Shown in pieces: positions 6,096-16,707 of a DNA stretch of 20,573 nucleotides (position 1 is its first letter; every line of letters begins with the position of its first letter). The notes beneath the pieces are model-generated. The model was given only the letters and a program-made list of their open reading frames with translations, was not told the origin of the DNA and searched no databases. Source of the DNA: a virus; IMG/VR virus record IMGVR_UViG_3300032240_001881, positions 1 to 20,573 of that record; one strand, given 5' to 3'. The translations under genes were made by a program, and so were the position numbers.

Positions 6096-6405
6096 TATCG
6101 ACGAGTTTTATAGAGGATGGTTCATTGGCAACTTTGAGCCATCATTGCTTAAAACAGATCAATTTGAAGTTAGTATATTAAAACATGCCCAAGGTGAACA
6201 TTGGCCCAAACATTATCATGCCATAGCCACAGAATATAATGTTCTGTTAAAAGGTTCTATGAAAATCAACGGCGAGTTGATGACCGAAGGTGATGTATTC
6301 GTTATTGAACCAGGTGAGGCCGCAGAGCCTGAATTTCTAGAAGATTGTACACTCGTATGTGTTAAAACACCAAGCCTACCAGGAGATAAGTATGAAGTTC
6401 TTTAA
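6082..6405 (+). CDS. Small single-domain cupin protein
   Basis: A 107-residue cupin. The first cupin motif is complete: the spacing G-x5-H-x-H-x4-E-x6-G is met by the stretch starting GEHWPKHYH (about residues 38-58), giving two His and one Glu as metal ligands. The second motif (GDVFVIEPGE, about 70-79) is recognisable, but the usual third histidine is replaced by Glu or Ala, so metal binding may be altered. Single-domain cupins of this size include sugar-phosphate isomerases and epimerases as well as binding proteins. The gene overlaps the nucleotidyltransferase by 14 nt and the RuBisCO-like gene by 14 nt, so all three are probably translationally coupled. The exact reaction cannot be read from sequence. 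Confidence 0.87.
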   Translation: MIKRNIDEFYRGWFIGNFEPSLLKTDQFEVSILKHAQGEHWPKHYHAIATEYNVLLKGSMKINGELMTEGDVFVIEPGEAAEPEFLEDCTLVCVKTPSLPGDKYEVL

Positions 6406-7582
6406 AGAACGCAGCGAAATTAAACTAGATGATTATTACATTGCCACCTATGATATGGCCAGTAGTAAAAATTTAAAAGAAGCGGCATGGAATCTTGCCA
6501 TTGGACAAAGTGTAGGTAATCCCAATGTTCGTAATGAATGGGAGACCGATGAACTATTTGAAAATCATAGTTGTATTATTCTCGGCAATGAACGTCGATT
6601 AGAAACCATGCGTCAAGGCACAGTAGAAATTGCTTTTCCTGTTGCCAACACAGATTGGGACACAGATGGTATAAGTCATCTACTATGTCAACTCATGGGC
6701 GGCCATGTAGATATTGATATTATAACCAAATGTCGTTTGATAAAATTAGAATTGCCCAAAACGGTGACCAGTCATTTCTTAGGTCCAAAGTTTGGTCTAA
6801 GTGGTTTTAGAAAGTTTACAGGACAATACAATAAACCATTGTTTGGCAGTATTGTTAAACCTAAGATTGGTATCACTCCTGAAGTATTATTGGAAATGGT
6901 CAAACAAATGGTAGATGGTGGTGTTGATTTTATCAAAGAAGATGAAATTATGAGCAATCCTGCCTGTGCTCCATTAGAACGCAGAGTAGATTTAATCTCT
7001 AACTATTTGGCCAAACAAAGTCAAAAGGTAGTGTTTTGTCATACTATTAACTGTGATCCACATGCAGTTATGGATCGTGTAAAACGTGTACACGAACTAG
7101 GTGGCAACGGAGTACATATTAATGTGTTCAGTGGACTAGGCGTATATAATAGTATCCGTAAATTAGATCTACCATTATTCCTACATTTCCAAAAGTCAGG
7201 CGATAAGGTATTCACTGATGCTAGCCACCGATTCAGTATCAGTTGGCCAGTTATATGTCAGTTGGCCACAATGATGGGTGTAGATACTATTCAAACAGGA
7301 ATGATAGGCGGTTATTCAAATGATGATCCTGCTGAACTAGCTGAAAGTATTCGTGTACTAAGAGATGGTAACACCACACCAGTTCTAAGTTGCGGAATGC
7401 ATGCTGGATTGGTAGACTATGTCACTGAACAAGTTGGTCAAGATTATATGGCCAATGTTGGCGGAGCAGTTCACGGACATCCTGGGGGAACCATTGCTGG
7501 TGCTCGAGCCATGCGGCAAGCAATTGATCGTACTTATGAATCGGAATATGATCAAGCAATAGCTAAATGGGGTAAAGTATAA
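6392..7582 (+). CDS. RuBisCO-like protein (form IV type), probably not a carboxylase
   Basis: A 396-residue homologue of the RuBisCO large subunit. The start at 6392 follows AGGAG by six bases. Landmarks by comparison with the plant enzyme: KPK at 156-158 (K175/K177), GGVDFIKEDE at 176-185 with K182 (the carbamylated K201), D184 and E185 (D203/E204), H265 (H294), SCGMH at 333-337 (S379 region) and VGGAVHGHPGG at 356-366 (G403/G404 phosphate loop). Carboxylase residues are missing: R295 is replaced by F266, H327 by Ser/Trp near 284-285, loop-6 K334 by Y308, and the E60 and N123 regions do not match. This pattern fits RuBisCO-like proteins, which act as enolases, isomerases or decarboxylases (for example MtnW in methionine salvage). 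It is shorter than true RuBisCO (about 470). It is cotranscribed with a nucleotidyltransferase and a cupin and ends at a strong terminator. Such a gene in a phage is very unusual. Confidence 0.93.
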   Translation: MKFFKERSEIKLDDYYIATYDMASSKNLKEAAWNLAIGQSVGNPNVRNEWETDELFENHSCIILGNERRLETMRQGTVEIAFPVANTDWDTDGISHLLCQLMGGHVDIDIITKCRLIKLELPKTVTSHFLGPKFGLSGFRKFTGQYNKPLFGSIVKPKIGITPEVLLEMVKQMVDGGVDFIKEDEIMSNPACAPLERRVDLISNYLAKQSQKVVFCHTINCDPHAVMDRVKRVHELGGNGVHINVFSGLGVYNSIRKLDLPLFLHFQKSGDKVFTDASHRFSISWPVICQLATMMGVDTIQTGMIGGYSNDDPAELAESIRVLRDGNTTPVLSCGMHAGLVDYVTEQVGQDYMANVGGAVHGHPGGTIAGARAMRQAIDRTYESEYDQAIAKWGKV

Positions 7583-8231: not shown

Positions 8232-9119
8232 TTAGAAACTGTATTCTAGACCAGCACCATAACGTGTGGTATCAGTGGCAGCACTCTCTTTCAAATAACG
8301 AGCCAATACTTTGGTGTTTTTACCCAAAGAGTAATTAGCACCTACGTTATAAGCGGTACGATCACCATTTACACCATAGCTAGCCATTGCGGTTAGTGTA
8401 GGAGTTACTGTTTGAGTAACACCAACGCTCTTACCTTGGTTTGCTACATTGGCTACCTTGCTATCAGAATATAATCCGAAAACAGTTGTACCAGTTTTGT
8501 CAAGACTAAACTTAGCGCCATAAGCATCAGTTGTGCTTGTTACACCATTGTCGAAACGAGCCCAGGTAGCAGACACAGGGCCTTTGGCATAAACCAAACT
8601 AGCTGTATATGGATTTGGAGTACCAGCTACTTCGCTGTTAGACAACTCATACTTGCCTACAAGTCCTTGAACAAGTGTAGCAGATACAAATACTGTATTG
8701 CTCAAACGAGTTCCTTGATAGGAGTGAATAGCGGCTGCGCTAGATCCAAACAAATCTCCACCCATGGCATCAAATGAGTCCAATGATTTGGTTAAGGCAG
8801 TTTTGTCACGGCCAAGACCAATCGAACCATATTTGTTTGATAGACCAACAAGGGCTACACGATCTCCAAGTGTAGTGGCTGTTGGAGCATCAACACCTAC
8901 ATTGGCTTCGACTGTTACAAATGCTGTCAAACCATTGCCAATGTTGTCGCTGGCTTTGATACCGATACGGCTTTTATCATTGGTTAAAGATGTTACAGAT
9001 GCTGCTGTGCCTACAGTAGATGATTCTTCATAGACACGAGCCATTCCATAAACGGAGACATCGGCCTGGGCGAATCCCATTAGACCGATTGATAATGCAA
9101 ATATTGCAAGTTTTTTCAT
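8232..9119 (-). CDS. Outer-membrane porin, betaproteobacterial type
   Basis: A 295-residue Gram-negative general porin. The ATG at 9119 is preceded by AAAGGAAA. A signal peptide (MKKLAIFALSIGLMGFAQA) is followed by the first strand, DVSVYGMARVYEE. Further porin hallmarks follow: DKSRIGIKASDNIGNGLTAF, RVALVGLSNKYGSIGLGRDKT and repeated amphipathic strands ending in Tyr or Phe. The C-terminus GLEYSF has the terminal phenylalanine used for insertion by the BAM machinery. These motifs are closest to betaproteobacterial trimeric porins, although those are usually longer (about 350 or more). It should form a water-filled channel in the host outer membrane. A T4-type late promoter precedes it and a UUCG terminator follows. 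Expressing it could change nutrient uptake or block adsorption of competing phages. Confidence 0.93.
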   Translation of the reverse strand: MKKLAIFALSIGLMGFAQADVSVYGMARVYEESSTVGTAASVTSLTNDKSRIGIKASDNIGNGLTAFVTVEANVGVDAPTATTLGDRVALVGLSNKYGSIGLGRDKTALTKSLDSFDAMGGDLFGSSAAAIHSYQGTRLSNTVFVSATLVQGLVGKYELSNSEVAGTPNPYTASLVYAKGPVSATWARFDNGVTSTTDAYGAKFSLDKTGTTVFGLYSDSKVANVANQGKSVGVTQTVTPTLTAMASYGVNGDRTAYNVGANYSLGKNTKVLARYLKESAATDTTRYGAGLEYSF

Positions 9120-9169
9120 ATTAAAATTTCCTTTTGTTTTATAAGACAACTATTGTCATCCTATAGATT

Positions 9170-9202: not shown

Positions 9203-9337
9203 TTAGTTTATGATTTCTTCGTACTCGTCCTTGGTGACGCCGCATTCTGGACAGCAGAAGTTATCATCTAGATCTTCCCAAAGACCTTCTGTGGCTTCAT
9301 CGTGAACATGACCACAAACTACGCATACATGATCCAT
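9203..9337 (-). CDS. Rubredoxin (stand-alone C-terminal part of rubrerythrin)
   Basis: A 44-residue protein with the two rubredoxin iron knuckles: CVVCG at residues 5-9 and CPECG at 29-33, separated by an acidic stretch with the usual aromatic residue (LWEDL). The four cysteines C5, C8, C29 and C32 would bind one iron in a one-electron carrier. Its length and sequence match the C-terminal rubredoxin domain of rubrerythrin rather than a full rubredoxin of about 52 residues. Its ATG overlaps the stop of the ferritin-like gene (TAATG), so the two are translated together and probably act as a two-subunit rubrerythrin reducing hydrogen peroxide in the cytoplasm. Confidence 0.93.
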   Translation of the reverse strand: MDHVCVVCGHVHDEATEGLWEDLDDNFCCPECGVTKDEYEEIIN

Positions 9338-9816
9338 TATAGTTTCTCCAATTGTTGTTGATATGCTGCCGCATGACGTTGTTCAACTTTCTTCAAGGCG
9401 GCAAAACGTTTTTCTGCTTTTTTCAATAGCAATGAATGTTTTTCGGCCTTGTCTAATATGGCCTGAAATGCTTCAGCATGTTCTTTGCTTTCAGCAATTT
9501 GTGCTCTGGCTTCGTTGGCAGCATCAATTTGATTTTCTCTAATGGCCAACCATTCAAACTGTGGATACATTTCTGTATACTCGTAGGTTTCGCCTTCGAT
9601 GGCTTTTTCCAAACATTCTCTGGTAGTTGGTTTACCGATCAGCAATTCTAAATGACTCCAAGCATGGAGTAATTCTTGATCTGCGGTATGTTCGAAATGT
9701 TGGGCAATTTCCTCATGACCTTCTTCACGAGCAATTTTTGCGAAATATCGATACTTGACATGTGCTTGGCTTTCACCGGCTAATGCTTTCTCGAGATTAT
9801 TGATAGTAGCTGACAT
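9337..9816 (-). CDS. Rubrerythrin-like ferritin-fold protein (diiron domain only)
   Basis: A 159-residue four-helix-bundle protein related to the N-terminal domain of rubrerythrin. The diiron ligand motifs appear in order: GESQAHVKYRYFA (about 14-26), ADQELLHAWSHLE (45-57), EGETYEYTEMYP (73-84) and AESKEHAEAF (108-117), the E-x-x-H and E-x-x-Y patterns of the family. A basic C-terminal helix of about 35 residues replaces the rubredoxin domain, which is encoded by the next gene with a one-base overlap. Rubrerythrins reduce hydrogen peroxide in the cytoplasm. The start at 9816 has AAGGAG nearby and a sigma70 promoter upstream. The pair may protect phage replication or host metabolism from oxidative stress. 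Confidence 0.9.
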   Translation of the reverse strand: MSATINNLEKALAGESQAHVKYRYFAKIAREEGHEEIAQHFEHTADQELLHAWSHLELLIGKPTTRECLEKAIEGETYEYTEMYPQFEWLAIRENQIDAANEARAQIAESKEHAEAFQAILDKAEKHSLLLKKAEKRFAALKKVEQRHAAAYQQQLEKL

Positions 9817-9916: not shown

Positions 9917-9939
9917 AAAAGAAACCCGCCGAAGCGGGT
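9917..9939 (-). terminator. Terminator of the tmRNA gene, UUCG tetraloop
   Basis: On the minus strand ACCCGC, the loop TTCG and GCGGGT (plus 9924-9939) form a perfect 6-bp stem followed by TTCTTTTT. It closes the tmRNA transcript and separates it from the rubrerythrin promoter. Confidence 0.9.
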
Positions 9940-10187
9940 CCTGGTTGTTTTGGTAATAAGGTATTTCCTACCTCACCTTAACCTTAAGCGGCTAAAGAAT
10001 ATAAACTATCGTTTGCCTTTAGTTTGATTTGCTTGATTTACAGTCATCGCCTACTGTGTAGATCTCATCAATACTCTTTGCTCAATCGATCACCATGTCA
10101 TCCCCACCTAAATATACTTCATACATTTAGGTGGAGATGCCGACTTCGAAGTCGGGTCTTGACCACTTTTTTATCAAAGCATTAAAC
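9940..10187 (-). ncRNA. ssrA: Permuted (two-piece) tmRNA, tag ANDSLYSLAA
   Basis: A tmRNA rescues ribosomes stalled on broken mRNA and adds a degradation tag. The tag frame (plus 9987-10016, minus strand) encodes ANDSLYSLAA and ends in TAA, close to the common ANDENYALAA. The acceptor halves are in reverse order: CATCTCC (10133-10139) lies upstream of GGGGATG (10099-10105). They form seven pairs with G3-U70, the alanine identity pair, followed by discriminator A73 (10132) and CC. The last A is not encoded. The T arm CCGACTTCGAAGTCGG (10140-10155) directly abuts the acceptor strand, though with a 6-nt loop instead of 7. Between the halves an inverted repeat (about 10106-10132) forms the spacer hairpin to be cut out. 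A P2-like helix can pair CAAAG and ATTGA of the coding piece with CTTTG and TTTAAT of the acceptor piece (near 10175-10186), overlapping the end of the endonuclease gene. Outer ends are approximate. Confidence 0.92.
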
Positions 10188-10940
10188 TACAATTCTGTGT
10201 TGTGGCATGCTTTTTTTTAGCCTGCCACTATTAAATCCTTTAAGTTTATATTCTTGTTCTTTTTCGAACAATATATAATGTTCTTTAATACCGTTATTTA
10301 CCCAAAGTTTTTTGGGTATGTGTCCTTTTTTACCTCTACACCATCCCTCTGGTATAGAATCATTTATTGTAATACGTTTAACTTCTTTGGTCAATATATT
10401 AGAAATCCATATTCTGCCAAACTGGGAATTCTTTTCTCCCTGACTATGCCCTTTTTCTATAAAGGTATTTTTTCGTTTGGCATTTGCTTCAGGTGTATTT
10501 GCTTTGTTACCTAACATTCGCATCCGATTTGGTTCTCTTGTCCAATCATATTTGCGTTGCCAATTTGGATCCTTGAATAAATTAGTTTCTCTATTTCCTG
10601 ATTTTAATCCACCTATCCTGGATTTTTGTTTTTGTATTTCAGTTCCATTATAATGATCCCATCCTCCTAGACCACCTTTGTGCATATTGTAAGTATCAGG
10701 TCTCTTGACAAAATCTTCTGTAACAACTTCTGATTCTTTATCGGCCATTTCTTTTAAGGATGAGCAGTAGTGTAAAACTTCTTTCTTAAAGTTTTCTATA
10801 CCATATTTTTTAATAGCGGCAGTGATTTGTTTTCCGGAACCGTAGTATCCATTTTCAGAAGGATGTTTAGAAGATTTATGTTTTCCAACATAAATCTTAC
10901 CATTCAATAAGTTTGTTATTTGATAGACATAGTAATACAT
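10182..10940 (-). CDS. GIY-YIG homing endonuclease
   Basis: A 252-residue protein with an N-terminal GIY-YIG nuclease domain: YYVYQITNLLNGKIYVGKHKS (about residues 2-22; written with a break as YYVYQITNLL / NGKIYVGKHKS), then YYGSGKQITAAIKKYG and a glutamate-rich helix (DKESEVV) holding the metal-binding Glu. The C-terminal half is basic, with repeated KxRIGGLKSGN- and NTPEANAKRK-like stretches that resemble the DNA-binding NUMOD modules of phage endonucleases. Such enzymes cut at a specific site and spread their own gene by repair. The ATG at 10940 starts just before the fold. A GTG at 10964 could add eight residues. The gene ends inside the 5' part of the tmRNA, so tmRNA or neighbouring DNA may be its homing site. 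It is stand-alone; no intron core was recognised. Confidence 0.9.
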   Translation of the reverse strand: MYYYVYQITNLLNGKIYVGKHKSSKHPSENGYYGSGKQITAAIKKYGIENFKKEVLHYCSSLKEMADKESEVVTEDFVKRPDTYNMHKGGLGGWDHYNGTEIQKQKSRIGGLKSGNRETNLFKDPNWQRKYDWTREPNRMRMLGNKANTPEANAKRKNTFIEKGHSQGEKNSQFGRIWISNILTKEVKRITINDSIPEGWCRGKKGHIPKKLWVNNGIKEHYILFEKEQEYKLKGFNSGRLKKSMPQHRIVV

Positions 10941-10979: not shown

Positions 10980-11091
10980 TTAACACACATAATGAAAGAG
11001 CACTTGCATACCTTCTAGGGCATATACAACCCGTTTACAACTATTCAACCTTACGCCTCTTTCCTGACCCAGGCTTCTCAGTGTGTGTTAA
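10980..11091 (-). ncRNA. Structured non-coding element of unknown function
   Basis: The 135-nt gap between the endonuclease and the next gene holds a nested set of inverted repeats. TTAACACACA (10980-10989) pairs with TGTGTGTTAA (11082-11091) over 10 bp. Inside, GAAAGAG and CTCTTTC (minus strand) pair over 7 bp, with CTGA/TCAG and wobble-containing TATGCC/GGTATG hairpins between. This looks like a folded RNA with a closing stem and a multi-branched core. I do not recognise it as a tRNA, riboswitch or intron core. No open frame here looks coding. Confidence 0.45.
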
Positions 11092-11428: not shown

Positions 11429-12064
11429 TTAATAAAAACATTGTGGTATAAACTTTGGAGTATTCCTAGTGGCCACAGTATCTTCATGGTTATCTTTTAA
11501 TTTAACAGTATAACCTAAATTTGATAAACGTTGACCAATTTGCTTTAATGCTTCGTAGTCACTGTTTACATTACTTTCATATTTAATCATGTCCGGTAGT
11601 TGATGTTCTAGTTGATATTTTTCGTAGTAATTCAACATACCATTGAGAATATCAACATCACCACCTTCGGTGTCAATCTGTAGATAGCCAATCTTTTCAA
11701 CATCATACTTTTTGGCAAACATTTCAAATGTAAAACATTCAACTTTTTGAGTTTTAACCAAATGCATGATATTCTGATGTAGTGTATGTGGCTTACCCAT
11801 GGAATTACATCCAGAAAGCCACCATCCTAAATTCATAGAACTAATAATTTGATCAGGAATATAAAATATCTCTGATTCTGGATTTTGTTTGTAGGCGTCG
11901 TCACCTAAAATTGCACCGCATACTTTAATTACTTGATCAGGATTGGGTAGCATATCCAAATATTCCTGTAGTGGTTCTACAGATATTCCACTGATATCAC
12001 CTTTGACTTCTTCAATAGCGGTGCCAAATTTTGATGTGCCTATTTCGACAAAATCATAGTTCAT
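11429..12064 (-). CDS. FkbM-family methyltransferase
   Basis: A 211-residue SAM-dependent methyltransferase of the FkbM type. Visible are the SAM-binding strand FVEIGT at 5-10 (motif I, shortened), ISVEPLQEY at 27-35 with the acidic residue after strand 2, and the family signature LQIDTEGGDVDIL at 128-140. The tail YESN...LGYTVKL is beta-like. FkbM enzymes methylate hydroxyl groups of sugars or small molecules, and phage and surface-polysaccharide gene sets often carry them. The target here is unknown. The ATG at 12064 has AAAGGA upstream. It lies between envelope-type genes, so methylation of a host surface glycan or virion glycan is possible, but this is inference. Confidence 0.87.
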   Translation of the reverse strand: MNYDFVEIGTSKFGTAIEEVKGDISGISVEPLQEYLDMLPNPDQVIKVCGAILGDDAYKQNPESEIFYIPDQIISSMNLGWWLSGCNSMGKPHTLHQNIMHLVKTQKVECFTFEMFAKKYDVEKIGYLQIDTEGGDVDILNGMLNYYEKYQLEHQLPDMIKYESNVNSDYEALKQIGQRLSNLGYTVKLKDNHEDTVATRNTPKFIPQCFY

Positions 12065-12713: not shown

Positions 12714-15308
12714 TTATCTCCTATATTGTTGGTCCACCATTTCTTGATGTAACCTATCACTGCCTAATTGTCTTAATGCCTTTGCATTATCGACCACTGT
12801 TTGTCCCTTATAAACTTCCTTAGGTTCATAAAAGGCCGCATCTCTTAACGCAACATTGTATGCTTCAAATCCTTTTGGTTGTAGAGCCATTGATGCAATA
12901 TCAACGTTGCCTGCTAGATCATTTGGTTGTACATTTCTATTAACTGTGCTGGTTTGTTGTTGTATATTTTCTTGCATCATTTCAAAACGTTGTTGCATTA
13001 AATCTGATAGTGGACTACCAGCTCGGGCATTCCCAAAACTGGCTATTTGTATTGCGGGCGCTTCAACTTCATTTACTTTTGTTTCAGTGCGAAATTGTAC
13101 AGCAGGTGCCTGCGCAGGTGTTGACTGTGTAGTATTATTATTTAAACTGGACAAATTAATTCCAATTGGATTACTTCTAACTGCCAGTCCCAAACCACTG
13201 CCAGTTTGTACAGCAGTTTCTTGAGTTGAAACAACAGGAGGTTTTATTATATTTGTAGTAGATGATTGTACATCTTGTTGAATATTAGCATATACAGGTT
13301 GTTGTATCTGTACCATACTGGCAAACGATTGTGTTTGTTGCTGCTGTACTTCAACCTGTTGTTGAACTTGTTGTGTCACTTTATTAGACTGTGATGATTG
13401 TGTTTGTTGCTGCTGTTGTACTTCAACCTGTTGTTGAACTTGTTGTGTCACTTTATTAGACTGTGATGATTGTGTATTGGCACTTTGCTGAATTTGCTGT
13501 GATTGACCTGATTGTTGAACCACCGCTTGTGTGGATGCCTGTGTGGTTTGACTGGAGAACTGTGCTGCTGCCTGAGCACCGTTAGCACTCATATCATTTA
13601 ATGCGGCTATTGCCGCTGTGGCTGTGGCCTGTGATTGCTGTGTGGAACCTTCCACTACCTTAGCAGCATTTTGTACGGCTATTTGCTGTGTGGCTTGATC
13701 ACGAGCCTGTGCAGTCTTAACCACGCTCAAAGCCAGTTTGCTAGGTCCGCCGCCGCCAGTAGATGGACCTGCTTGTTGTGGACCAGCACTCGGAGGCGTA
13801 GCACTGGCTGTTGCTGTCTGTGGAGGACCACCTGCGGGTTGTGGACTTGTAGGTGCGGGCCCTGCTTGTTGTGGACTAGGCTGTGCTGGATTATCTTGTG
13901 CTACCACTGGATTCTGATTTGGATCTTGTACAGTACTTGCTGACTGTTGTTGAGGGGCTTGCTGGGCAGGTTGCTGTTGTGCTTGTTGTTGTGGTTGTGC
14001 AGGATCAGGACTTGCTAATGCTGGTGCAGATTGTACTACTTCGGGAGTTGCTGCTGCTGGTGTAGGCGCTGCTGCCGGAGCACTGGCACTGGCCACTGTT
14101 GAACCTAGGATCATATTCTTGGCATAGGAAGTGGCATACCCTGGGCAAGTAGGGCTGTATAATGGATTAGTTGCACAAGGATCAGGTTTATAAAGAGCAT
14201 TAACATACATATTTTGAATTGCCGCATTACCTGATGTACTAGCACCCAGTGTAAAATTACCCAATGATAATGAATTTGTTGTACTGGCAAGTAAAAACTG
14301 ATATGAAACATTTTCAGCAGTATTAGGAGTACTTCTACTTTGTGTGGCACTATAAATTACATCATTACTACTATTAGTTAATCGTACTCTCATAGTAGCA
14401 TTTGGGTTTGTATTCATATACCAACTACATGAGCCATCTTGATTAGTAGCAGTACATTCAGATCTACCATTGCCTAAACTATAATTATAACCATAGTTGA
14501 AACCGTATACTTCAACACCTGCTCCAGAACTTTTAAGTGCTGTATTGATAGCAAATGAATTGTAGACTATATCACCGTTGGACATTAGATTTGGATTTAC
14601 TAAATTACCGCTAGTGACCACGCTACTAAATCCTGAACAACTAGGACTATAGGCAGGATTAAGAGTACAGGGATCAACTCGATATTTTAAACTAAAACTA
14701 ACGTTGGTAATTTCTGGACCATAATTACCAGCCCAGTAGTTATTGTCCTTACCAATAAAGCCTACCTGTGCATTGCTGTAGTTAGTAGCTGCTACAGGAT
14801 TGGCAAATGTTTCGCTAAAGTTGAAATTGGTCCAGTTGTATTTTTTATTGGTCTGACTCACATAATCATATGTAGCAGCAACACCTCCCGCAGCATTGTA
14901 AAACTTAACATAGGCATCTAAGTAATCTTGACGTCCATCATCCCATCCGTTGCCATTTTTAGCACGAAAGCCAAAATTAAAACCACTGAGTTGTACTCCT
15001 GTGCCACCTGCGGCCAGTGCTCGGTTTATATTGACAACTTGATTTAAGTCTATTTGACCATAACTGAAATTGATATCGCCCGATGCTGCACGAACACTGG
15101 GTTTAGGGCCGCAATTGCCAGGTTGGCCAGACTGGAAACATATTGTATTAACATAGACACCATTGTTCCACGTGCTGGTTGTATCTGTAGGTGCAGTACC
15201 GGTATTGATTAAATTACCGGTAGTAGAATCAACAGTTTGGGCCTTAGAATGACTTATAAACGATAGCGCCAAGCAAAGCACCAAGGCCCATTTTAGTATA
15301 CGTGTCAT
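12714..15308 (-). CDS. Large secreted two-module protein with Gln/Pro/Ala-rich stalk
   Basis: An 864-residue exported protein. Signal peptide 1-23 (MTRILKWALVLCLALSFISHSKA). Two homologous beta-rich modules follow at about 85-227 and 245-391: NINRALAAGGTGVQLSGFNFGF matches (broken here) FAINTALKSSGAGVEVYGFNYG, and each module ends in DPC-x2-NP-x-YSP-x-C. The rest is low complexity: Ala/Pro/Gln to about 520, then Ser/Gln/Thr with a 24-residue tandem repeat (614-660), and a mixed C-terminus. The two beta modules could bind glycans or assemble a fibre; this is inference. The ATG at 15308 has GAGGAAAA at proper distance, although the start lies 65 nt inside the Asn-repeat gene. I do not recognise the family with certainty. 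Confidence 0.85.
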   Translation of the reverse strand: MTRILKWALVLCLALSFISHSKAQTVDSTTGNLINTGTAPTDTTSTWNNGVYVNTICFQSGQPGNCGPKPSVRAASGDINFSYGQIDLNQVVNINRALAAGGTGVQLSGFNFGFRAKNGNGWDDGRQDYLDAYVKFYNAAGGVAATYDYVSQTNKKYNWTNFNFSETFANPVAATNYSNAQVGFIGKDNNYWAGNYGPEITNVSFSLKYRVDPCTLNPAYSPSCSGFSSVVTSGNLVNPNLMSNGDIVYNSFAINTALKSSGAGVEVYGFNYGYNYSLGNGRSECTATNQDGSCSWYMNTNPNATMRVRLTNSSNDVIYSATQSRSTPNTAENVSYQFLLASTTNSLSLGNFTLGASTSGNAAIQNMYVNALYKPDPCATNPLYSPTCPGYATSYAKNMILGSTVASASAPAAAPTPAAATPEVVQSAPALASPDPAQPQQQAQQQPAQQAPQQQSASTVQDPNQNPVVAQDNPAQPSPQQAGPAPTSPQPAGGPPQTATASATPPSAGPQQAGPSTGGGGPSKLALSVVKTAQARDQATQQIAVQNAAKVVEGSTQQSQATATAAIAALNDMSANGAQAAAQFSSQTTQASTQAVVQQSGQSQQIQQSANTQSSQSNKVTQQVQQQVEVQQQQQTQSSQSNKVTQQVQQQVEVQQQQTQSFASMVQIQQPVYANIQQDVQSSTTNIIKPPVVSTQETAVQTGSGLGLAVRSNPIGINLSSLNNNTTQSTPAQAPAVQFRTETKVNEVEAPAIQIASFGNARAGSPLSDLMQQRFEMMQENIQQQTSTVNRNVQPNDLAGNVDIASMALQPKGFEAYNVALRDAAFYEPKEVYKGQTVVDNAKALRQLGSDRLHQEMVDQQYRR
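13327..13467 (-). repeat. Tandem repeat of about 72 bp inside the Gln-rich gene
   Basis: Two nearly identical copies lie head to tail: 13327-13395 (69 bp, one codon shorter) and 13396-13467 (72 bp), followed by a partial third start. They encode two copies of a unit containing QSSQSNKVTQQVQQQVEV. The near identity at DNA level shows a recent duplication that can change length by slippage or recombination. Confidence 0.85.
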
Positions 15309-16707
15309 CTATTTTTTCCTCTTCCACTGCTGGAACTTTTTCTTTGTTTTCTTCCCAGGCTAATTTGGCTTGTTCGCCAATCTTACCTTCGTATGGGCAA
15401 GGTGTTCCTGCTGCCATCATAGCGTCAAATATACGACGGTCTTGACACATAGTAGCCACTGCGGCTACCTTCATACCCATATCATATAATGTTTTGGCCA
15501 ACTTCAATCTTTCGCAATTTAGATCACGTATGGTACCACCACCACTGACACCAAAGATCTGTGTCTGTACACTACCACTGGATCCTGTGGTACATAGATC
15601 ACCATTGCCGCCGCTCATCATTGATGGTGCAACTGCTGTAGGCGGAGGTTGAATAACACGCTGTGTGATATCACTGGTGTTGACATTGTTATTAGTCATT
15701 GTACCACTGTTGATATTTTGATTAACATTGGCGTTTTGATTAACATTAGTATTGGTACTGGTACTAGTATTAACATTGTTGTTGGTCATACTACCACTTT
15801 GAACGTTGTTGTTAGTCATCGTACCACTGTTGATATTGGTATTAACATTATTACTAGTTGATGAATTTTGATTAACATTGTTATTGTTGTTGGTCATTGT
15901 ACCACTATTAATGTTGGTATTGGTACTAACATTGGTGTTGACATTGTTATTATTATTGGTCATCGTACCGCTATTGATATTATTGTTAGTATTAACGCTG
16001 GTACTAGAGTTGACATTATTGTTGTTATTGGTTGCGGTACTTGTACTAGTGCTGGCATTGACGTTATTGTTATTATAGGTCATTGTACCACTGTTAATAT
16101 TATTGTTGGTATTAACACTGGTGCTAGAATTGACATTATTGTTATTATAAGTCATCGTACCTGAGTTGATATTGTTATTTGTATTAACATTATTACTGTT
16201 ACTGGTACTAGTACTTGTGCTGGCATTAACATTATTATTGTTATAAGTCATCGTACCTGAGTTGATATTGTTATTTGTATTAACATTATTACTGTTACTG
16301 GTACTTGTGCTGGTATTGACATTATTGTTATTGTTGGTCATTGTACCAGTATTAACGTTGTTGTTATTAAACGTTTGAGTTCCGCTATTAACGTTGTTAT
16401 TATTGTTGGTATATGTCACTGCTCCTGACATAACATTATTGTTGTTATTGTTATTGGTCATTGTACCAGTATTAACATTATTATTGTTATTGGTATTAAC
16501 GCTGGTGCTGCCCACAGTGGTTTGGTTGATATTAGTTATAGTGCCACTATTGACGTTATTGGTGTTGATAGTACTTGTGCTTGTGCTAGTACTGTTGGTA
16601 TCAACCAAACTTTTAGAATCATAGCCGCCTTGATTGATCACAGCCTGCGCCCAAACTGTACATATAAAGAACATGGCAGTAGCCCATGCTAGTATTTTCT
16701 TAAACAT
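15244..16707 (-). CDS. Secreted Asn-repeat protein with conserved Cys-rich C-terminal domain
   Basis: A 487-residue exported protein. Signal peptide about 1-20 (MFKKILAWATAMFFICTVWA). Residues about 45-345 are irregular repeats of the type NNNNVNSGTMT and NNVNTSTSTS, of roughly 11 residues, which would suit a stacked beta-solenoid or amyloid-like fibre. The C-terminal 130 residues are a normal domain with four cysteines: GDLC, DLNCERLKLAKTLYDMG, ATMCQDRRIFDAM and GTPCPYEG. A short hydrophobic tail (MGLGALLGAIVYKSF) could insert into a membrane. The ATG at 16707 has GGGGAG upstream, and TGTAAATA may be its late promoter. The last 65 nt also encode the next gene's signal peptide in another frame. 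Function unknown; a surface or virion fibre is inferred. Confidence 0.85.
   Translation of the reverse strand: MFKKILAWATAMFFICTVWAQAVINQGGYDSKSLVDTNSTSTSTSTINTNNVNSGTITNINQTTVGSTSVNTNNNNNVNTGTMTNNNNNNNVMSGAVTYTNNNNNVNSGTQTFNNNNVNTGTMTNNNNNVNTSTSTSNSNNVNTNNNINSGTMTYNNNNVNASTSTSTSNSNNVNTNNNINSGTMTYNNNNVNSSTSVNTNNNINSGTMTYNNNNVNASTSTSTATNNNNNVNSSTSVNTNNNINSGTMTNNNNNVNTNVSTNTNINSGTMTNNNNNVNQNSSTSNNVNTNINSGTMTNNNVQSGSMTNNNVNTSTSTNTNVNQNANVNQNINSGTMTNNNVNTSDITQRVIQPPPTAVAPSMMSGGNGDLCTTGSSGSVQTQIFGVSGGGTIRDLNCERLKLAKTLYDMGMKVAAVATMCQDRRIFDAMMAAGTPCPYEGKIGEQAKLAWEENKEKVPAVEEEKIDDTYTKMGLGALLGAIVYKSF
15660..16560 (-). repeat. Degenerate tandem repeat array encoding Asn-rich units
   Basis: About 900 bp consist of short related units built from GTTAAT/GTCAAT, AACAATAAT and GGTACAATGAC-like words on the minus strand, in lengths that are multiples of three. 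They stay in frame with the Asn-repeat protein. Unit order and number look scrambled, pointing to repeated duplication and loss. Confidence 0.85.
16145..16305 (-). repeat. Exact 65-bp direct repeat pair within the Asn-repeat gene
   Basis: Positions 16145-16209 and 16241-16305 are identical by eye, at a 96-bp period (32 codons). This is the freshest duplication in the array and probably a hot spot for deletion or expansion. It may also be a weak spot for short-read assembly. Confidence 0.8.

Follow-up and report, generated by a model that had tools for sequence, protein, structure and literature searches.

A two-piece tmRNA gene of a freshwater phage overlaps a SegB-like endonuclease gene and may be its homing site

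The homing endonuclease SegB of phage T4 reportedly lies beside tRNA genes, as Brok-Volchanskaya is said to have described in 2008. In T-even phages, SegB drives the inheritance or amplification of the tRNA region (PMC2988022, PMC13096335). Phages also carry tmRNA genes: Methylophilales phage Melnitz, like other aquatic phages, has a two-piece ssrA and was reported along with a count of 53 two-piece tmRNAs in phage genomes (PMC9004378), 79 phage sequences are listed in the tmRNA database (PMC11915505), and huge phages have been described that encode tmRNA together with SmpB (PMC7162821). Here we report a permuted tmRNA gene in a stretch of 20,573 bases of a freshwater phage from IMG/VR, hereafter called the window, in which the open reading frame (ORF) of a GIY-YIG endonuclease ends inside the tmRNA gene. 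It is this setting, the overlap with an endonuclease, that is new; two-piece phage tmRNAs as such were already known. In a literature search that mostly did not extend to subscription papers, we found no endonuclease at a phage tmRNA and no synteny of phage tmRNA and clpX.

A preliminary description of the window, made from its sequence alone, had proposed a permuted two-piece tmRNA with its own degradation tag. Two Rfam covariance models scored above their cut-offs on the minus strand and agree with this proposal, namely RF04321 (tmRNA_permuted) at 10191-9984, with 105.2 bits and an E value of 5.8e-20 (cut-off 47), and RF01850 (beta_tmRNA) at 10257-9920, with 101 bits and an E value of 4.8e-30 (cut-off 84). 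ARAGORN did not call a tmRNA in the window. RF04321 covers only the base pairs of the tRNA domain (PMC11915505), so that a match to it does not require a post-tag pseudoknot. The whole permuted tmRNA occupies 10191-9920 on the minus strand and, as read from the sequence, has the 3' acceptor half first and the 5' half second (Table 1). Each element that had been named can be recognized, that is, the tag, which has a stop codon and a hydrophobic -AA end, the 7-bp acceptor with G3-U70, which is the alanine identity pair, A73, the abutting T arm, the resume context (CUAAAG-GCA) and the UUCG terminator; the spacer hairpin, too, forms when the 24-nt segment folds with its flanks. The fold of the tmRNA precursor is better than that of 200 out of 200 shuffled sequences (z -4.7), and Rfam matched neither a riboswitch nor a group I intron there. 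The earlier suggestion of a minimal tmRNA, based on few or no pseudoknots after the tag, is correct for that part, where there is a hairpin only and the second stem of the beta-type pseudoknot is absent, but not for the part before the tag, where PK1 is present. Not mentioned in the preliminary description were P2, PK1, the endonuclease ORF with its stop codon inside the tmRNA gene, the mosaic origin of this gene and the synteny with clpX.

Table 1. Features of the window at and around the tmRNA gene
Feature	Position	Strand	Basis or remark
Phage ClpX, 410 aa	1242..2474	-	Motifs, synteny
Rubrerythrin, next gene downstream of tmRNA	9337..9816	-	Same order in L170
Intrinsic terminator, UUCG hairpin and U run	9922..9941	-	Sequence
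Coding piece: acceptor 5' strand, D domain, P2 5' strand, PK1, tag, post-tag hairpin	9944..10105	-	Sequence, Rfam; 3' end putative
Post-tag hairpin GGUGAGGUA-GGAAA-UACCUUAUU	9955..9977	-	Homologous to first stem of relatives' post-tag pseudoknot
Tag frame ANDSLYSLAA-stop	9984..10016	-	Sequence, Rfam, relatives' tags
PK1, stems ACAG/CUGU and UGA/UCA	10034..10057	-	Compensatory variants in relatives
Acceptor 5' strand GGGGAUG	10105-10099	-	7 bp with 3' strand, includes G3-U70
Intervening segment, 24 nt	10106..10129	-	Hairpin with its flanks; excision from mature RNA inferred
Acceptor piece	10130..10191	-	Sequence, Rfam, covariation
CC	10131-10130	-	Next base U, replacing A of CCA
A73	10132	-	Sequence
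Acceptor 3' strand CAUCUCC	10139-10133	-	Abuts T arm directly
T loop UUCGAA, 6 nt	10150-10145	-	Sequence
T stem CCGAC/GUCGG	10155-10151 with 10144-10140	-	Sequence; T arm is 10155-10140
P2 3' strand UGUAG	10191-10187	-	Pairs with 5' strand 10061-10057
GIY-YIG (SegB/SegE-like) homing-type endonuclease ORF, 260 aa	10964-10182	-	Pfam, homology
Candidate remnant (12 nt), GAATAGTTGTAA, from the 5' end of a displaced resident tmRNA	11035..11046	-	Identical to L170; weak

Relatives were collected by a DNA pattern and, independently of the RNA, via four neighbouring proteins. Covariation was examined in 21 genes, comprising 20 endonuclease-linked genes (the window included) and one endonuclease-free relative, most of which had been recovered via the endonuclease protein. 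Across acceptor, T stem and P2, 99.4% of the cells of this alignment are paired, both sides have changed in 10 of the 15 pairs, which was matched by 0 of 500 shuffles, and G3-U70 is invariant (21/21). Compensatory exchanges are also present in PK1, where UGA/UCA is replaced in relatives by CGA/UCG, UGGA/UCCA, UUCUC/GAGAA or AGGA/UCCU. The tag frame survives in close relatives with three stops, TAA, TGA and TAG, as in the variants ANDSLYSIAA-UGA (L170), ANDELYSMAA-UAG (L043, L369) and ANDSQYSMAA. Acceptor pairing, G3-U70 and tag frame, originally noted in a single sequence, are thus all kept in related phages, and this pattern indicates that the window tmRNA is a conserved, selected RNA gene. 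Downstream of the tag, where the window has the hairpin only, an H-type pseudoknot is found in many relatives, its second stem measuring 5-8 bp. Two peculiarities remarked upon earlier, the 6-nt T loop and the CCA end without its final A, are both present and both recur: the loop occurs with a compensated stem in the endonuclease-linked genes L203, L211 and L215, and the A is likewise unencoded in L170 and L202. Neither is thus an error of the window contig, and a sequencing error as the origin of the T loop is ruled out by these three relatives.

The same peculiarities, together with the loss of the post-tag stem and the failure of ARAGORN to call the gene, could be taken as signs of a decaying tmRNA pseudogene or a host fragment that has lost its function. 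This reading is highly improbable given that compensatory exchanges are seen in PK1 as well as in each of the three helices, and given the retention of the tag frame with different stops, the strong terminator and covariance model scores far above cut-off, and we rejected it on the grounds of covariation and the conserved tag frame. Judged by its sequence and that of its relatives, the window locus is very likely a functional two-piece tmRNA.

Several observations concern tmRNA genes beyond the window. Long tags of about 26-36 residues are present in relatives (L203, L205, L219, L220, L222, L225, L045), with recurring motifs GxVxV and FRF/KFS; where tRNA-like halves are similar, these long tags alternate with short ones of the form AND...LAA. 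The tag at L211:10789-11022, ANDDTFLLAANA, does not end in -AA and might resist ClpXP. Among virus contigs from aquatic environments, permuted tmRNAs are common, with at least 119 stretches recovered from IMG/VR by one strict pattern (loci L002-L120). In the cultured Sinorhizobium jumbo phage Phosso (L458, PV764938.1 349596-350198), a permuted tmRNA is present but not annotated; its spacer is 411 nt long and its tag is ANDNVSTKVALAA, and the phage has clpX too.

A betaproteobacterial host is suggested by a single feature, the beta-type RNA. By DNA, the window has no direct relative among sequenced phages; a homology search with the porin in genomes, intended to identify the host, found no relative, and the D-loop variant AUCGAUU of the window tmRNA is absent from the genome collection except for one small MAG contig. 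The porin itself (Porin_4; 8232-9149, minus strand) is a phage-encoded Gram-negative outer-membrane porin that is kept in related phages, with 87% DNA identity to L170. Rubrerythrin has more than 260 relatives in viral contigs, many of them near tmRNA genes. Further genes of the window include one for a RuBisCO large-chain-like protein (6359-7582, plus strand; Pfam RuBisCO_large, E 1.7e-39), which adjoins a nucleotidyltransferase and a cupin-like ORF; this protein has 55 relatives in IMG/VR and none among 50,697 phage records. At 15244-16707 (minus strand), a 487-aa protein consists largely of Asn/Thr/Ser-rich repeats (NNNNVNTGTMT...).

The endonuclease ORF terminates at the 5' end of the tmRNA gene, with its stop codon (10184-10182) within that gene, and its last codons (..IVV*) serve also as a P2 strand. 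The protein matches Pfam SegE_GIY-YIG (E 1.3e-7), and its nearest named relative is T4 SegB, with 42.6% identity over 79%. All 30 of the closest homologues (L201-L230) directly precede a permuted tmRNA, 28 of these being complete and 2 cut by the contig end, and the spacing of the two genes is fixed to a few nt among homologues that are at least 54% alike. Of 16 such ORFs checked, 15 are intact, and the gene is under purifying selection, with a dN/dS of about 0.1-0.35 at a dS near saturation. The majority of phage tmRNAs are without an endonuclease.

Comparison with contig L170/L118, which has the same order of small ORF, tmRNA, rubrerythrin and porin and corresponds to the endonuclease-free allele, revealed that the two halves of the window tmRNA differ in their closest relatives. 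The tRNA-like half (10200-10057) agrees with the endonuclease-bearing L211 at 124/144 and with L170 at 97/144, whereas the tag half (10056-9905) agrees with L170 at 142/152 and with L211 at 79/152. The switch lies at 10057/10056, between P2 and PK1. All collected genes were also ranked half by half; L013 and L023 in this ranking are identical to the contigs L202 and L215. Endonuclease-linked genes supply the six tRNA-like halves closest to that of the window, and the closest tag halves come from genes without the endonuclease. These comparisons identify the window tmRNA as a mosaic, in which the tRNA-like half comes from endonuclease-bearing phages and the tag half from the resident gene. An endonuclease-free allele and a breakpoint of this kind are what co-conversion of the sequence flanking a homing endonuclease leaves behind. 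A methyltransferase-like ORF (11429-12064, minus strand) present in the window is missing at the same position in L170, constituting a second insertion among otherwise syntenic genes.

A truncated second acceptor piece lies ahead of the start of the endonuclease gene in 14 of 28 loci (12 distinct remnants). These remnants start near P2 and break off at the T arm, most of the breaks falling between -5 and +8 nt relative to the start of the T loop; examples are L211, with ...AAGACGTGGGTTC up to the break, and L201, with ...AAGACGCGAGTTCGA. Their scores of 24-45 compare with a shuffled maximum of 16-20, and among control loci with an endonuclease-free tmRNA only 1 of 123 reaches 23. The 12-nt candidate in the window has a p of about 0.005 against L170 alone; when a library of 128 pieces is the reference, it does not reach significance. 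Remnant-like scores were also found near distant Seg genes, but those inspected proved to be intact tRNA T arms, which score 20-28, extend to the acceptor end and are without the tmRNA-specific 5' part, and we thus rejected them as tmRNA remnants. At the Acinetobacter phage AM101 Seg gene, which overlaps a tRNA, a remnant was not found.

The T loops of endonuclease-linked genes often differ from those of endonuclease-free genes. A canonical UUCRA T loop is present in 3 of 25 genes with the endonuclease and in 91 of 125 without it when kinship is ignored; within the clade, 30 of 57 endonuclease-free genes have it (Fisher p 5e-4, with shared descent ignored). An altered T loop occurs also in about half of the endonuclease-free genes of the clade. 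GGC(A/G)G T loops are the norm in alphaproteobacteria, and the idea that loops of the GGCAG type are aberrant was discarded because they correspond to the alphaproteobacterial consensus. They are thus plausible functional replacements rather than damage.

It is conceivable that the window contains an ordinary phage two-piece tmRNA with an endonuclease as a mere neighbour in intergenic space, and that mosaic and remnants result from general recombination at a conserved RNA gene. Most phage tmRNAs have no endonuclease, phage tRNA clusters commonly house Seg genes, and T4-like phages recombine freely, all of which would agree with this view. We nevertheless regard it as unlikely, because the partner is the same for 30 of 30 nearest endonucleases at a near-fixed spacing, and because truncated upstream acceptor pieces, with breaks near one point, occur at 14/28 loci compared to 1/123 controls.

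Our preferred explanation, which we consider probable, combines a functional phage two-piece tmRNA with its use as the home of a homing SegB-like endonuclease. This grade is a compromise between the two components, the function of the tmRNA, of which we are highly confident, and the homing, for which the chances are roughly even. The homing component starts from the observed fusion of the two genes, the mosaic, the remnants in relatives and the altered T arms. It holds, with that even chance and from sequence comparisons, that the endonuclease may target the T arm of phage tmRNA genes, insert there and supply a cut-proof acceptor half, so that the tRNA-like half spreads and the tag stays. The endonuclease would cut the T-arm DNA of endonuclease-free tmRNA genes, and the remnant and the 3' part of the tmRNA would provide the homology arms for repair. 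Repair would import the endonuclease along with a complete acceptor piece carrying an altered T arm, by which the gene would be restored and the cut site lost. What was the 5' end of the tmRNA would stay behind upstream, becoming a remnant, and the tag half of the resident gene would be retained. As an outcome, tRNA-like halves would move between phages, with the tag half of each phage staying in place. In the infected cell, host tRNA enzymes would remove the 24-nt spacer, the host would complete the CCA end, AlaRS would charge the tmRNA, and host SmpB would carry it to stalled ribosomes. Proteins ending in ANDSLYSLAA would then be delivered to ClpXP, possibly with phage ClpX and, in the largest relatives, phage ClpP.

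The phage ClpX retains the zinc finger, Walker A and B motifs, GYVG pore loop, RKH loop and a VGF (IGF-type, ClpP-binding) loop. Both genes are visible in 41 loci, and in every one of them the tmRNA precedes clpX on the same strand, at a distance of 2.8-9.8 kb; a permuted tmRNA is present in 40 of 50 clpX records. ClpP was found in 8 of these 50 records, including all five over 160 kb. Neither SmpB nor SspB was found in the 50 clade records, and on this basis we rejected a self-sufficient phage trans-translation. Conversely, among 50 records picked mainly for tmRNA, rubrerythrin or endonuclease, a ClpX zinc finger exceeded the cut-off in only 9; an obligatory pairing of tmRNA and ClpX as a general rule was therefore dismissed. 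The linkage to clpX is a property of a single phage clade, where it may reflect shared ancestry. The synteny of tmRNA and clpX is conserved in this clade, and we infer from it that the two may be functionally coupled.

A possible consequence is that the tmRNA acts mainly in redirecting proteolysis, with host proteins tagged for a phage-controlled ClpXP, and not in ribosome rescue as such. The intact motifs of phage ClpX and its conserved order with the tmRNA, the presence of phage ClpP in the largest relatives and a similar role proposed for Melnitz (PMC9004378) are in favor of this alternative, which we consider doubtful: many tmRNA phages are without ClpX, and the tag end SLAA is close to the host-type ALAA, so that host ClpXP should presumably read the tag as well.

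If the preferred explanation of a working tmRNA that serves as a homing site is correct, homing endonucleases would constitute a new way for tmRNA genes to move, with the RNA gene being exchanged half by half. The locus offers natural T-arm and pseudoknot variants for structure-function work on tmRNA, and the link between phage tmRNA, ClpX and sometimes ClpP renders phage-controlled tagging and proteolysis testable. Phage tmRNAs are probably undercounted, because ARAGORN, a standard survey tool, misses the window gene and the tmRNA of Phosso is unannotated.

In comparison with known systems, the lytic myophage Melnitz resembles the window in having a complete permuted tmRNA with its own tag. 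Its ssrA is of the alpha type and accompanied by a glutamine riboswitch, whereas the window combines a beta-type body with an overlapping endonuclease and clpX synteny, and has no riboswitch match. Betaproteobacterial permuted tmRNA (RF01850; RF04321, PMC11915505) shares with the window the gene order, acceptor, T arm, P2 and PK1, the tag and the terminator, but the window has a 6-nt T loop and a post-tag hairpin in place of the pseudoknot. T4 segB stops 5 nt short of tRNA-Arg, and in AM101, too, a tRNA gene directly follows the Seg gene. T4 SegB drives the inheritance of adjoining RNA genes and is a GIY-YIG protein like the window endonuclease; by contrast, the partner in the window is a tmRNA, the ORF overlaps this partner, and a truncated partner copy lies upstream in relatives and, as a weak candidate, in the window. 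Two other kinds of mobile DNA similarly use the T-arm end of a tmRNA gene that stays functional, namely group I introns within the T loop and integrative islands (PMC11915505). The window differs from these in having neither intron nor integrase, and the copy that restores the gene would arrive with a free-standing endonuclease.
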